Of a DNA stretch of 5,026 bases, positions 796 through 4,639 are shown in pieces. A program made the position numbers and the translations under genes. Origin of the DNA: Actinomycetota bacterium (GTDB lineage Bacteria > Actinomycetota > Acidimicrobiia > Acidimicrobiales > UBA8592); contig PAYW01000006.1 in the NCBI GenBank assembly GCA_002715425.1, forward strand, positions 5,206 through 10,231, read 5' to 3'. Positions within the stretch are counted from its first letter, which is position 1, and every line of letters starts with the position of its first letter. The notes beneath the pieces were generated by a model. The model searched no databases. It was given only the letters and a program-made list of their open reading frames with translations, and was not told the origin of the DNA.

Positions 796-1350
796 ATGGA
801 TGACACTCCTCTTCATCAATCAGGGCAACCGCCATTGACACAATCTGAGATGTGGTCGTTTTTTGTTCAGGAACTTTCAGACGAGGAACTTAGCAAGTTA
901 GGTGTTTCTATTTTTGAAGAACAACGACAACGCGCAATTGATGGAGGTGATCAGGAGGAAATTATTACCAAGGCTTTCGAAGCTGGATTTGAACGCTCCG
1001 GTCTTGGGGTCATGCCATGGATAGAAGGATCCTTACTTGTCTGCCCCGGTGCGTTAATATCAAAAAGTCAGGGATCTCATCGTTGCCGATTCGTCAGTAT
1101 TAATCAAGAATGGGTTTGGCAGTCAAGCATGCTCATAACTGAATCCAAAAGACCGGGACAAGGCTCTGACAAAGGATTCCGAGCGATAGCGCTTCTTCCT
1201 GTTATTGAAGGAACAGCAGTTGATATTGTCAGCGGACGTTTGCAATCCGGCGAACACAGAGCGCAGAAGGTGGTATCTCTTGAAGTCCGTGATGGGAAAT
1301 TACTTCAAGTAGACACTCGCGTGATTTCTAACGGCGGCCATCATCACTAA
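796..1350 (+). CDS. Conserved-looking soluble protein of unknown function, 184 aa
   Basis: I do not recognise this protein. In-frame stops TAG (778-780) and TAA (790-792) just upstream make ATG 796 the first possible start. No Shine-Dalgarno motif precedes it, so translation may be leaderless or weakly initiated. There is no signal peptide or membrane helix. Residues about 15-70 are charged and look helical (DEELSKLGVSIFEEQRQRA). From about 71 the chain becomes strand-rich, starting with GVMPWIEGSLLVCPG, then a central W-rich stretch (QEWVWQSS), and a basic C-terminal third that alternates hydrophobic and polar residues. There are two cysteines (83 and 97) and no obvious catalytic signature. 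The tail is GGHHH, a natural tri-histidine end. It lies 57 nt after the MFS gene on the same strand and is convergent with the selenoprotein gene, 15 nt from its stop. Coding status rests on length, in-frame start and composition; the function is unknown. Confidence 0.72.
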   Translation: MDDTPLHQSGQPPLTQSEMWSFFVQELSDEELSKLGVSIFEEQRQRAIDGGDQEEIITKAFEAGFERSGLGVMPWIEGSLLVCPGALISKSQGSHRCRFVSINQEWVWQSSMLITESKRPGQGSDKGFRAIALLPVIEGTAVDIVSGRLQSGEHRAQKVVSLEVRDGKLLQVDTRVISNGGHHH

Positions 1351-1365
1351 TTATTAACTGCGCTA

Positions 1366-2394
1366 CTAAGCCCTTGGAATCCCATGGTACGGGGATCCCG
1401 CATCTTGGAACTGCTGATACAACTCAAAGAATTCTTCTCCAAATGGGTCGCCACCTCGTAAAGGCATACTTGCCCGCACAATAGTGAAATCAAGTGGAGT
1501 GAGTTCAGCAGCCGCGTTGAAGTGGTGCTCTGCCTCTTCTGCATGTCCGTTTCTTCGAAGATGAGCAGCGGTCTTGAAATGCAGCCTGGCTTGAACCTCA
1601 TCTTCTGATAAATCGGGGACGGAGTATGAAGCGTCATTTGGTAGCGAACCTTCGTGGACCCAGTCGCGTACCTGCTGCATATGGGTTTCGCGACTTATTC
1701 CAGTAATTTCCGTAAAGGTATCGGTACCGAATTCCGCAGCTGCCGGTCTAGCAATCATGTTGTTCTCATCAATCCAAACGACTGATGGAACGTTACTAAT
1801 TGCGTAGAGTTCTGTGAGGAGATGGTCTTGATCCATAAGTACTGGGTAGGTAGTCCCAGTTGCTAATTCACTTACTGCTGTTGTGTTCTCATCGATTGCA
1901 ACTGCAATAATCTGGAAATTATCTTCCTTAAGCTCTTCGAACAGTTCCTGCCACCCTGGCAGATCAAATGCGCAACCTCACCAACTTGAAAAAGCTACAA
2001 GAAGTCGTTTTTTCCCTGCCCAGTCAGATAAGGCTCGGTCAACTCCTGAGATATCCGGAAGGGAGAAATCTGGAGCAATTCGCTGCGTCAAGGCATCAGA
2101 CCTGACATTGTAAGGTTGACCAACTGCTACTATGCCGGCAGCTTCATCGGTCAGTGATGGGCGGCCCACAAGACTAGCGAGTTCGCTGAGATTAAAGGCT
2201 CCCTGACTGTTGGAATTGACGTTATCACTCAGAGGTATGCACGCATCGCCCTTACACAATCCTTCAGTTTTAAGTTCCCAACCGAGGACTCCTTCTATGT
2301 CCTTAGCGTGGAGATATGGAGCTCCATCAAACCATGAGCCTTCAATCACAACCGTACGGTCAGATAAAACGGTTATTTCACATAAAGTTGTCAT
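1366..2394 (-). CDS. ResA/TlpA-like thioredoxin-fold selenoprotein with in-frame UGA (Sec139), 342 aa
   Basis: This is one reading frame from ATG (2394-2392) to TAG (1368-1366), interrupted only by TGA at 1980-1978, codon 139. The 138 codons before and 203 after are in the same frame, and the protein similarity runs straight across, so the TGA is read as selenocysteine. Residues 1-60 form an N-terminal domain with EGLCKGDACIPL (Cys47, Cys52). Residues about 105-250 are a redoxin/thioredoxin fold: IAPDFSLPDISG, then LLVAFSSW-U-GC with Sec139 and Cys141, then IIAVAIDE, TYPVLMDQ and the cis-proline loop SNVPSVVWID (Pro203). Residues about 262-300 look like a TPR-type helical pair (AHLRRNGHAEEAEHHFNAAAE). 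From memory this matches the family NCBI names ResA-like WAxxUGC motif-containing (seleno)protein; here the first residues are F and S instead of W and A. No signal peptide is seen, so it is probably cytoplasmic. It is expected to act as a thiol/disulfide or peroxide oxidoreductase; the substrate is unknown. A loss-of-function nonsense mutation is the main alternative, but the UGA position and hairpin argue against it. Confidence 0.9.
1948..1962 (-). promoter_or_regulatory. Candidate bacterial SECIS hairpin
   Basis: On the minus strand the bases are CTGCCA-GGG-TGGCAG: a perfect 6-bp stem (four G-C and two A-U pairs) closing a 3-nt loop made only of G. A flanking U-G wobble could add a seventh pair. 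The stem begins 15 nt after the UGA and the loop 21 nt after it. This fits the published bacterial SECIS pattern as I recall it: a short stem, the loop roughly 16-37 nt from UGA, and a G in the first two loop positions. The hairpin lies inside the coding sequence and encodes residues 145-149 (LPGWQ). SelB would bind this loop and bring Sec-tRNA to the UGA. Confidence 0.85.
1978..1980 (-). other. Selenocysteine codon UGA (Sec139)
   Basis: This in-frame TGA lies between the codons for Trp138 and Gly140, at the place of the nucleophilic cysteine in ResA/TlpA-type proteins (W-C-G-x-C). TGA also serves as a normal stop in the window (84-aa gene, 4637-4639), so wholesale reassignment of TGA is unlikely. 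Confidence 0.88.
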
Positions 2395-2396
2395 GT

Positions 2397-4193
2397 TTAT
2401 CTCCGAAGAGTAGAGGAATCGATAGCAAAGAGAGAAGCGGCTCCGCTTGTCACTGATGGAAGTAAGCCAGCAACTTGCGGTAGTATTTGCTGGGCGTAAA
2501 AAGTTGCTGTTTCTATTTTAGCTTCAAGAAATTCAGAATTTTCAGTATTATCTGCAAGTAAACTCTGGGCTGATAGTGCTGCTTTGCCTAGAAGCCATCC
2601 TCCTACAGTCGTTCCAAACATACGCAGATACGGAGTAGCGCCAGCAAGACCGGCGTCGGTGCTACCTCCTCCATTCTCTAGTAGCCAAGTACTAGCGGCT
2701 TTTAGGCTTTCGTTAGCTGATTGTAATGGGGTTCCTATATCGTTAAGGTCGTTAGCAGATAGCTCGGCGACTGTATCGTCAATGTCGGCAAGTAGTTCGC
2801 TTACAGCTGCGCCATTTCTCATACTGAGCTTTCTTCCCACAAGGTCAATTGCCTGAATCCCGTTTGTGCCTTCGTAAATACCTGCGATGCGTATATCTCT
2901 GTAATGTTGAGCTGCTCCCGTTTCTTCAACAAAACCCATGCCTCCATGAATTTGTATTCCGAGGCTAGTCAATTCATTGCCAAGATCTGTACACCATCCT
3001 TTTGATAGTGGTGTCAGCAGATCTGTGAGTTCTTCACCGTATTGTCGTTTTGTTTCATCAGGGTGGTTGTGAGCTATGTCGATTGCTTTTGCATTCAGAT
3101 ATATCAAACAGCGCATGGCTTCTATATAGGCCTTCATCGTCATTAGCATGCGTCGAACATCTGGATGTTCCATGATCAACGCTGACTCTCCCTTAGGGGT
3201 ATCTGATCTCCTTCCCTGGCGTCTTTCTAGGGCGTATTCAATGGCTTGTTGGTATGCCCGATCGGCAACGGCAAGGCCTTCAAGGCCAACAGCTAATCTG
3301 GCTTGGTTCATCATGGTGAACATATATCTCATTCCAGAATTCTCTTCTCCGACTAGGTATCCTTTGGCCCCTCCATTGTCACCAAATTGTAAAACGCATG
3401 TGGGTGAAGCATGTATGCCCAGTTTGTGTTCTAGTGAAATGCACTTGATATCGTTGGCTTCCCCGATATTGCCCTTTTCGTCAACCATATACTTCGGGAC
3501 TATAAATAAACTTATTCCCTTTGTTCCAACCGGCGCATCAGGAGTTCGGGCCAAAACTAGATGGATGATGTTGTCAGTTAAGTTGTGCTCTCCCCAAGTT
3601 ATATAAATTTTTTGACCGGTAATGAGGTAAGAGCCATCTTCTTGCAGTTCAGCTTTTGTAGTTAAGGCACCTACATCTGAACCAGCTTGAGGTTCGGTTA
3701 AGTTCATTGTCCCAGCCCATTCGCCAGTGATTAATTTAGGAAGCCATTTGAGTTTTTGGTCGGTATCTCCATGGGCGGTAAGTGCGTGTATAGACCCTTG
3801 CGTGAGCATAGGGTTCAGCGATAATGCCATGTTTGCAGCGGTCAGCATTTCAGTTACAGCTATACCTACAAGCCAGGGAAATCCACCACCTCCATATTCG
3901 GGGTCAAAACTTATTGCTCCCCATCCAGCTTCTACATATTGGCTATAGGCTTCAACAAACCCATCAGGGGTCGTAACTGACCCATCCGAGTTTAAGGAGC
4001 TTCCTTGAAGGTCCCCTGTTCTATTCGTAGGAGAAATAACTTGCGAAAAGAATTTACCAGCTTCGTCAAGTAAATCTTCTAGGGATTCAAGGCCGACACT
4101 TTTGAAAGAAGGGAAATCTTCAAGGGACTTAATATCTACTACTTCTTTAAGTGTGAATTTCATATCTTCCAACGGGGGAGTGTACTCACTCAT
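2397..4193 (-). CDS. Long-form acyl-CoA dehydrogenase, DmdC/FadE-like, 598 aa
   Basis: This is an FAD-dependent acyl-CoA dehydrogenase, which introduces an alpha,beta double bond into an acyl-CoA and passes electrons to ETF. The order of parts is typical of the ~600-residue DmdC-like class. A short N-terminal extension (about 1-35) precedes a helical N domain (about 36-160) with the PEYGGGGFP turn (98-106). The beta-barrel middle domain holds LTEPQAGSDVG (165-175) and ITGQKIYITWGEHN (191-204). The C-terminal four-helix domain holds QARLAVGLEGLA (297-308) and the flavin/substrate region IHGGMGFVEETG (415-426). The catalytic base is Glu441 in GIYEGTNGIQ, equivalent to the catalytic Glu of IYEGT in DmdC. 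An additional C-terminal domain (about 460-598) is characteristic of the class. The start ATG has an AAAGGGA-type site just upstream. Family members act on 3-methylmercaptopropionyl-CoA or on ordinary acyl-CoAs, and the sequence alone does not decide the substrate. It is the first gene of a pair with the selenoprotein, separated by 2 nt. Confidence 0.95.
   Translation of the reverse strand: MSEYTPPLEDMKFTLKEVVDIKSLEDFPSFKSVGLESLEDLLDEAGKFFSQVISPTNRTGDLQGSSLNSDGSVTTPDGFVEAYSQYVEAGWGAISFDPEYGGGGFPWLVGIAVTEMLTAANMALSLNPMLTQGSIHALTAHGDTDQKLKWLPKLITGEWAGTMNLTEPQAGSDVGALTTKAELQEDGSYLITGQKIYITWGEHNLTDNIIHLVLARTPDAPVGTKGISLFIVPKYMVDEKGNIGEANDIKCISLEHKLGIHASPTCVLQFGDNGGAKGYLVGEENSGMRYMFTMMNQARLAVGLEGLAVADRAYQQAIEYALERRQGRRSDTPKGESALIMEHPDVRRMLMTMKAYIEAMRCLIYLNAKAIDIAHNHPDETKRQYGEELTDLLTPLSKGWCTDLGNELTSLGIQIHGGMGFVEETGAAQHYRDIRIAGIYEGTNGIQAIDLVGRKLSMRNGAAVSELLADIDDTVAELSANDLNDIGTPLQSANESLKAASTWLLENGGGSTDAGLAGATPYLRMFGTTVGGWLLGKAALSAQSLLADNTENSEFLEAKIETATFYAQQILPQVAGLLPSVTSGAASLFAIDSSTLRR
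2400..2405 (-). promoter_or_regulatory. Ribosome binding site of the selenoprotein gene, inside the dehydrogenase end
   Basis: On the minus strand CGGAGA includes GGAG (2404-2401), 6 nt before ATG 2394. It overlaps the last codons of the acyl-CoA dehydrogenase, whose TAA stop (2399-2397) lies between the site and the ATG. The arrangement TAA-AC-ATG supports this start and suggests translational coupling. Confidence 0.75.
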
Positions 4194-4197
4194 GTAT

Positions 4198-4204
4198 TCC
4201 CTTT
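4198..4204 (-). promoter_or_regulatory. Ribosome binding site of the acyl-CoA dehydrogenase gene
   Basis: On the minus strand AAAGGGA precedes ATG 4193 with about 4 nt between. It is a moderate Shine-Dalgarno match (GGGA rather than GGAG) that supports the chosen start. Confidence 0.5.
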
Positions 4205-4285
4205 CATCTTCTTTAGTTACAACAACATAGTTCTTTCACGATGCTACCCATACCTATAGGGCCCCGACTCGCTCAGAGGACAATT

Positions 4286-4299
4286 TCTTGATCTCAAGA
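4286..4299. repeat. Short inverted repeat, possible operator
   Basis: TCTTGA-TC-TCAAGA has two perfect 6-bp arms around a 2-bp centre. It lies 10 nt downstream of the TTGACA box when read toward the dehydrogenase, where a repressor would block RNA polymerase. A regulator binding here would be a plausible control of the dehydrogenase-selenoprotein pair. Repeats of this length also arise by chance in AT-rich spacer DNA, so this is only a candidate. Confidence 0.25.
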
Positions 4300-4384
4300 C
4301 AAAAGAAAATGTCAATTAGTAGGTATAAAAATAAGTCGAAAGTTTCGGCAGAGCAACTTTTGAAATAAGTTTGATCATGTTCAT

Positions 4385-4639
4385 ATGGAAGATGCTTCAC
4401 GAAATAACCAGATCCAGGACGTAAAAGTCTATTTTTCTGGGAATTTTCTCGGACGCCTTACAGTTTCCATAGAAAGAAGCAAGCAGACAACCAATCCAAC
4501 CTGGGAAGGGCAAATTCTAGGTTCTGATTACTTGGTATGGGGCTTGAATCACAAGAAAGTAAATCTCCAATTTGAAGATGGATCAGGGTTCGATGTTATT
4601 GTCCGCCCAGGTGGAAAAATCTTTCGGACCCCAGAATGA
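4385..4639 (+). CDS. Small protein of unknown function, 84 aa
   Basis: I do not recognise this protein. An in-frame TGA at 4361-4363 and the absence of other start codons between it and 4385 make this ATG the only sensible start. No clear Shine-Dalgarno site precedes it, so the mRNA may be leaderless. After a polar N-terminus (MEDASRNNQ) the chain looks almost entirely strand-forming: DVKVYFSGNFLGRLTVSIE, WEGQILG, YLVWGL, KVNLQFEDGSGFDVIV. This suggests a small beta-sandwich or barrel. It has no cysteine, signal peptide or membrane helix. The TGA stop is followed directly by the stop of the opposing MeaB gene, with no gap. Coding is supported by the alternation of hydrophobic residues and by how exactly it fills the space between its neighbours; the function is unknown. 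Confidence 0.6.
   Translation: MEDASRNNQIQDVKVYFSGNFLGRLTVSIERSKQTTNPTWEGQILGSDYLVWGLNHKKVNLQFEDGSGFDVIVRPGGKIFRTPE

Follow-up and report, generated by a model that had tools for sequence, protein, structure and literature searches.

In a 5,026-nucleotide (nt) stretch of DNA from an Actinomycetota bacterium (assembly GCA_002715425.1, contig PAYW01000006.1, positions 5,206 to 10,231 of the forward strand; hereafter referred to as the window), the minus-strand frame 2394–1366 very probably represents a single selenoprotein gene, decoded as such, which belongs to a sister subfamily within an already known kind of selenoprotein. The frame comprises 342 codons, and its sole internal stop is a TGA at codon 139 (1980–1978, minus strand), for which the sequence evidence makes us highly confident of a reading as selenocysteine (Sec), the U of a U-G-C motif in a ResA/TlpA-like redoxin. 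Three lines of evidence support this decoding: the interchange of TGA and cysteine (Cys) codons among relatives, the presence of Sec machinery that tracks the codon, and a hairpin with stronger constraint in Sec genes. An earlier, preliminary description of this DNA had proposed one selenoprotein gene that ordinary gene finding would break in two, and the open reading frame (ORF) listing indeed divides it into exactly the two pieces named there, of 138 amino acids (aa; 2394–1978) and 156 aa (1836–1366), with no other stop in the shared frame. The selenoprotein interpretation of that description is thus supported, although the kind itself had been described before.

With regard to the integrity of the frame, a tblastn search with the read-through protein showed that relatives match both sides of codon 139 in one frame, and seven of the first eight loci span residues 1–341 or 1–342. 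Since relatives align on both sides in this way and 65 of 79 carry the same TGA, the frame across the TGA is beyond chance. A start at 2394 is plausible, backed by a GGAG at 2404–2401 (minus strand), 6 nt 5′ of the ATG, and by several relatives that align from residue 1. This GGAG, read from the sequence, is the likely ribosome-binding site and falls within the 3′-terminal part of the preceding gene.

The residue found at position 139 in other organisms was examined at both the protein and the nucleotide level. In a search of 5.8 billion proteins, in which TGA was read as Cys, 626 matches were obtained and 120 were listed; among the latter, all 117 full-length proteins carry Cys at this position, and the remaining three (P0052, P0077 and P0102) are pieces that start 3′ of the TGA. 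These three pieces are 74–81% identical to the window protein, compared with at most 53% for the other matches listed. A nucleotide search of contigs from one genome per species yielded 188 stretches that encode relatives, of which the best 80 were used; as L049 starts after the site, the codon was counted in 79 loci, being TGA in 65, TGC in 10 and TGT in four. The expectation that homologues would carry either Cys or Sec at position 139 was therefore borne out. The nearest relative (L001) is 90% identical, and relatives with as little as 44% identity still have this TGA, flanked on either side by an intact frame. Most of these relatives are labelled Acidimicrobiia or other actinobacterial groups, a few are labelled just "bacterium" or "marine group bacterium", and two carry labels from outside the actinobacteria (L036, Euryarchaeota; L056, Acidobacteria) and are perhaps misbinned. 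Judged by these relatives, the window gene comes from an actinobacterium belonging to the Acidimicrobiia. On a quick maximum-likelihood tree, built with the site and the following 13 codons left out, at least two changes between Sec and Cys are needed; the tree is unrooted, so that gain and loss of Sec are indistinguishable; it leaves 23 forks open, and the pair L056 and L062 drew a long-branch warning. By their isolate names (palsa, bog, Kiruna, Umea), several of the Cys loci (L040, L059, L061, L063, L064, L066, L069, L071, L074–L078 and L080) gave the impression of a peat or freshwater origin.

The machinery for Sec insertion was searched with curated cut-offs in 50 genomes, i.e., those of 36 of the 65 TGA loci (L001–L030, L042, L048, L051, L058, L062 and L072) and of all 14 Cys loci. 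Matches over the cut-off were found for tRNA-Sec in 28, SelA in 30, SelB in 29 and SelD in 29 of the 36 TGA genomes, and for none of the four in any Cys genome. All four components were present together in 21 TGA genomes and at least one was present in 35, compared with 0 of 14 Cys genomes; Fisher's p values, calculated with kinship ignored, ranged from 4e-8 to 3e-7 for single components and reached 1.6e-11 for any component. The tRNA-Sec scores were 63–69 bits in the 28 TGA genomes and at most 46 bits in the 14 Cys genomes (cut-off 47). ARAGORN also reported a tRNA-Sec with anticodon TCA in each of four loci examined, including one in the L001 genome. In the genome of this closest relative (G001), tRNA-Sec was the only one of the four components over the cut-off, while, of the two relatives following in closeness, G002 had three and G003 had all four; because genome completeness is not given, such single absences may reflect missing contigs. 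Matches to tRNA-Sec and SelB below the cut-offs occurred in all 50 genomes and, judged by their scores, were taken for other tRNAs and GTPases. A further observation concerned SelD itself: in 27 of the 29 genomes where it exceeded the cut-off (G002, G003 and G005 among them), its gene carries a single in-frame TGA, and it is probably a selenoprotein there as well.

Downstream of the codon, folding revealed a putative selenocysteine insertion sequence (SECIS) hairpin at 1947–1963 (minus strand), made up of six Watson–Crick pairs and an outer G-U pair that enclose a GGG triloop at 1956–1954. It starts 14 nt 3′ of the UGA, the distance from UGA to loop is 21 nt, and the 21-nt stretch folds on its own at −8.6 kcal/mol. 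These values, including the GGG triloop, lie within the published limits for bacterial SECIS elements, namely a loop of 3–9 nt, 4–16 base pairs, a G in the first two loop positions, 16–37 nt and a minimum free energy of at most −7.5 (PMC13188914). Because the codons for D-L-P-G-W-Q tend to produce a hairpin of this type in any gene, Sec genes were compared with Cys genes. The Leu codon had a final G in 64 of 66 Sec genes, that of the window among them, versus 8 of 14 Cys genes. For Pro and Gly, all 66 Sec genes but just 2 of 14 Cys genes paired CCA with some Gly codon or CCC specifically with GGG; elsewhere in the Sec genes, GGG accounts for 15% of Gly codons, and CCA and CCC together for 52% of Pro codons. 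Compared with synonymous shuffles, the mean folding energy was −10.0 versus −5.4 for Sec genes and −7.8 versus −5.9 for Cys genes (Mann–Whitney on z, p 6e-4). Synonymous constraint at the hairpin is thus stronger in Sec than in Cys genes.

A series of observations nevertheless weighs against the decoding of codon 139 as Sec. Firstly, all the machinery evidence comes from the genomes of relatives, the nearest 90% identical, and not from the window's own genome. One TGA genome (G014) had no component over the cut-off, only a SelB-like piece of 204 bits at the start of a contig. In addition, the cut-offs were passed in some of the 14 control genomes, which were counted without being named (five for tRNA-Sec, two for SelB, two for SelD and one for SelA), and tRNA-Sec alone may therefore overcall. 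Secondly, the need to encode L-P-G-W-Q imposes part of the hairpin, a folding energy of −7.5 kcal/mol or lower being reached in 7 of 14 Cys genes as well as in 63 of 66 Sec genes, and the stem contains a mismatched pair in two of the Sec relatives (L008 and L013). The Pro/Gly codon rule was first noticed and then counted on one and the same dataset; placed on the tree, it amounts to three independent switches or pairs, all of them concerted (sign test p 0.25). Finally, a synonymous-shuffle p of 0.1 was reached by just 42% of the Sec genes and 21% of the Cys genes, with a p of 0.08 for the window, and dinucleotide shuffles of a 44-nt stretch of the window revealed no extra stability (z 0.52). 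Synonymous shuffling lends the hairpin some support, and dinucleotide shuffling none.

The predicted protein has three parts. The ResA/TlpA-like thioredoxin-fold domain (approximately residues 106–245; 1660–2079, minus strand), recognized by Pfam, alignment and fold searches, contains U139, C141 and P203, the last of which is invariant in 52 sequences and aligned with a Pro of ResA, by alignment at the cis-Pro loop position. It is preceded by a beta-rich N-terminal domain (approximately residues 1–103; 2086–2394, minus strand) in which the pair C47-x4-C52 is near-invariant. For this N-terminal piece no Pfam match was listed at E values up to 10, a search in which the HMMER filters drop weak matches; since folding did not treat this piece separately and it was hardly probed by the fold searches, we do not call its fold new. 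The C-terminal part (approximately residues 249–342; 1369–1650, minus strand) is a helical, TPR-like tail. The CX4C domain and the redoxin domain announced in the preliminary description were both recovered, as was the location of the TGA at the redox nucleophile position of a ResA/TlpA-like fold, Sec139 being aligned with the leading Cys of CxxC in ResA. As for the C-terminal helical repeat proposed there, the helical tail was confirmed, while the repeat amounts to a weak TPR match below the Pfam cut-off (PF07719, E 5e-4, 20.4 bits against a cut-off of 27). The protein shares with ResA and TlpA the thioredoxin-like fold and the Pro at the aligned cis-Pro position, but it differs from the ResA/TlpA/CcmG thiol-disulfide oxidoreductases in having U-x-C in place of C-x-x-C, one residue shorter, in its additional N- and C-terminal domains, and in that no signal peptide or membrane anchor is evident by eye in the 342-aa protein.

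Whether this domain acts as a disulfide oxidoreductase or as a peroxiredoxin bears on the mechanism and not on the decoding. Its best Pfam match is AhpC-TSA (PF00578, 51.3 bits against a cut-off of 26, E 1.4e-13), peroxiredoxins are among the fold matches, and many sources label the homologues as peroxiredoxins. By contrast, the top places in the sequence search go to a thioredoxin-family protein and ResA chains, and those in the fold searches to a ResA or DsbE-type chain. Peroxiredoxins carry the motif PxxxTxxC, and a second redox residue two positions after the first is unusual for them; here, Leu occupies the position of the Pro and Ser that of the Thr, and the second redox residue follows in precisely that atypical place. 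We regard a peroxiredoxin as rather unlikely.

For the ResA/TlpA-like reading, the following mechanism is proposed. SelB and tRNA-Sec would decode UGA 139, directed by the hairpin 14 nt downstream, as the comparative evidence suggests, and the product would be a thioredoxin-fold oxidoreductase with 342 aa and no evident signal peptide. Sec139 takes the place of the nucleophile that opens the CxxC motif in ResA, and since Cys141 is the likely resolving residue, the motif is U-x-C. The selenolate may attack a disulfide, a peroxide or a similar substrate, Cys141 may then close a selenenylsulfide, and a thiol donor may reduce it again; we consider this division of roles between U139 and C141 somewhat more likely than not. 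A relay of this last step via C47 and C52 of the N-terminal domain is a tentative idea, and the TPR-like tail may dock a partner. In relatives that lack the Sec machinery, Cys occupies this position.

A second functional product is conceivable if the UGA doubles as a stop, given that Sec insertion generally competes with termination and that the 138-aa N-terminal piece constitutes a whole domain with its CX4C pair. The part downstream of the UGA is well conserved, though, the nearest fragments being 74–81% identical, and among the 120 matches listed the 117 homologues of Cys type exist in the long form only, so that we hold such a dual product to be improbable. Less probable still is a pseudogene or sequencing error, i.e., a premature stop in a Cys-type gene. 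The TGA is indeed one base away from TGC or TGT, and the genomes compared are those of relatives; yet 65 of 79 relatives, some of them no more than 44% identical, share the codon, with an intact frame on either side and a tie to the Sec machinery. The preliminary description had itself raised a misread TGC or TGT, which the same TGA in 65 other records makes very unlikely. Equally remote is the idea that suppression or an altered genetic code places some other residue, such as Trp or Cys, at the TGA. Codes of that type would also leave the frame open, but within the clade of the window TGA terminates 22 of 89 ORFs of at least 150 aa around the gene, relatives without TGA at this site invariably use a Cys codon there, and close relatives possess a tRNA-Sec with anticodon TCA. 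A viral or mobile origin was rejected, the single match to a phage record being weak (30.5% identity over 41% of the query) and none being confirmed in viral contigs.

Selenoproteins of this general kind are known from ocean metagenomes. The Global Ocean Sampling selenoproteome contains a "Prx-like (UGC-containing)" family (pfam00578) with the numbers 46, 15 and 855 (PMC2398784), of which we tentatively take 46 and 855 as the Sec and Cys counts. UGC-containing Prx-like selenoproteins are also listed in PMC9312934, and a 2026 review lists a "UGC-containing TlpA disulfide reductase family protein" (PMC13188914). The window protein resembles these families in having a redoxin domain of pfam00578 or TlpA (cd02966) type, here an AhpC-TSA/TlpA-type domain with its Sec in UGC; the comparison covers domain, motif, counts and accessions, and the published sequences may belong to the present branch or to NF041054. 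In a literature search of a partial collection, no publication on this branch under its own name was found, and the published family may include it; the term "UGC" was not found in passages of PMC5029168, and a term search of PMC12013277 gave no match.

The closest described model is the NCBIfam family NF041054 (WAxxUGC_long, ResA-like WAxxUGC motif-containing protein), which the window protein resembles in its similar length, in its U-G-C motif and in a profile match (9–203, E 1.1e-60) that covers the N-terminal and redoxin parts. It differs in its score of 205.9 bits, below the curated cut-off of 300, and in having Phe rather than Trp at position −4 from U in 66 of 66 Sec genes, with Ser or Ala at −3 (F-S-S-W-U in the window). 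Members of NF041054 over the cut-off occurred in 4 of the 50 genomes (G032–G035; L097–L100) as five genes, two of them in G032, with 433–550 bits and a single TGA in each; they are distinct from the present gene, whose best stretch in these genomes scores 146–203 bits. Based on the sub-cut-off score and on the existence of both forms as separate genes in four genomes, we assign the present gene to a sister subfamily of the known kind. A third, intermediate group with one TGA and 254–259 bits, also under the NF041054 cut-off, was observed in G019, G026 and G031.

We tentatively envisage a so far undescribed subfamily of selenoproteins that would be widespread among Acidimicrobiia and in whose members Sec139-Gly-Cys141 and the N-terminal CX4C would form a two-stage cytosolic redox relay, the SECIS loop would exist in two interchangeable forms (A-GGN-U or C-GGG-U), and Cys would appear wherever a lineage gave up selenocysteine; as a whole, this proposal is speculative. 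As ordinary gene callers split the gene, databases hold pieces that start after the UGA, such as P0052, P0077 and P0102, and a dedicated model of the NF041054 sister subfamily would mend the annotation of genomes like the 65 that carry TGA here. With Sec where the machinery is present and Cys where it is absent, the group also constitutes a good natural experiment on the gain or loss of selenocysteine.

Concerning the neighbourhood, an acyl-CoA dehydrogenase gene with a PF12806 C-terminal domain (2397–4193, minus strand), identified by Pfam and by neighbourhood comparison, lies 2 nt upstream of the selenoprotein gene, and both are possibly cotranscribed. Besides the window, 13 of 79 relatives, all of them close, have this arrangement, and some contigs (e.g., that of L011) stop before that place. 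As the pair is limited to these relatives and the largest neighbour cluster, found in 26 of 80 loci with the window included, occupies scattered positions, a functional link to the acyl-CoA dehydrogenase was rejected and the neighbourhood was not used for assigning function. A promoter scan over 1300–4500 found none (shuffles averaged 5.3), the scanned region contained two terminator-like sites (3.1 in shuffles), and Rfam gave two matches on the window, both far under the gathering scores. Two small plus-strand genes without Pfam or NCBIfam matches were also observed in places kept in the close clade: a convergent gene of 184 aa at 796–1350, and a gene of 84 aa at 4385–4639 that stands tail to tail with a MeaB-like gene with zero gap.
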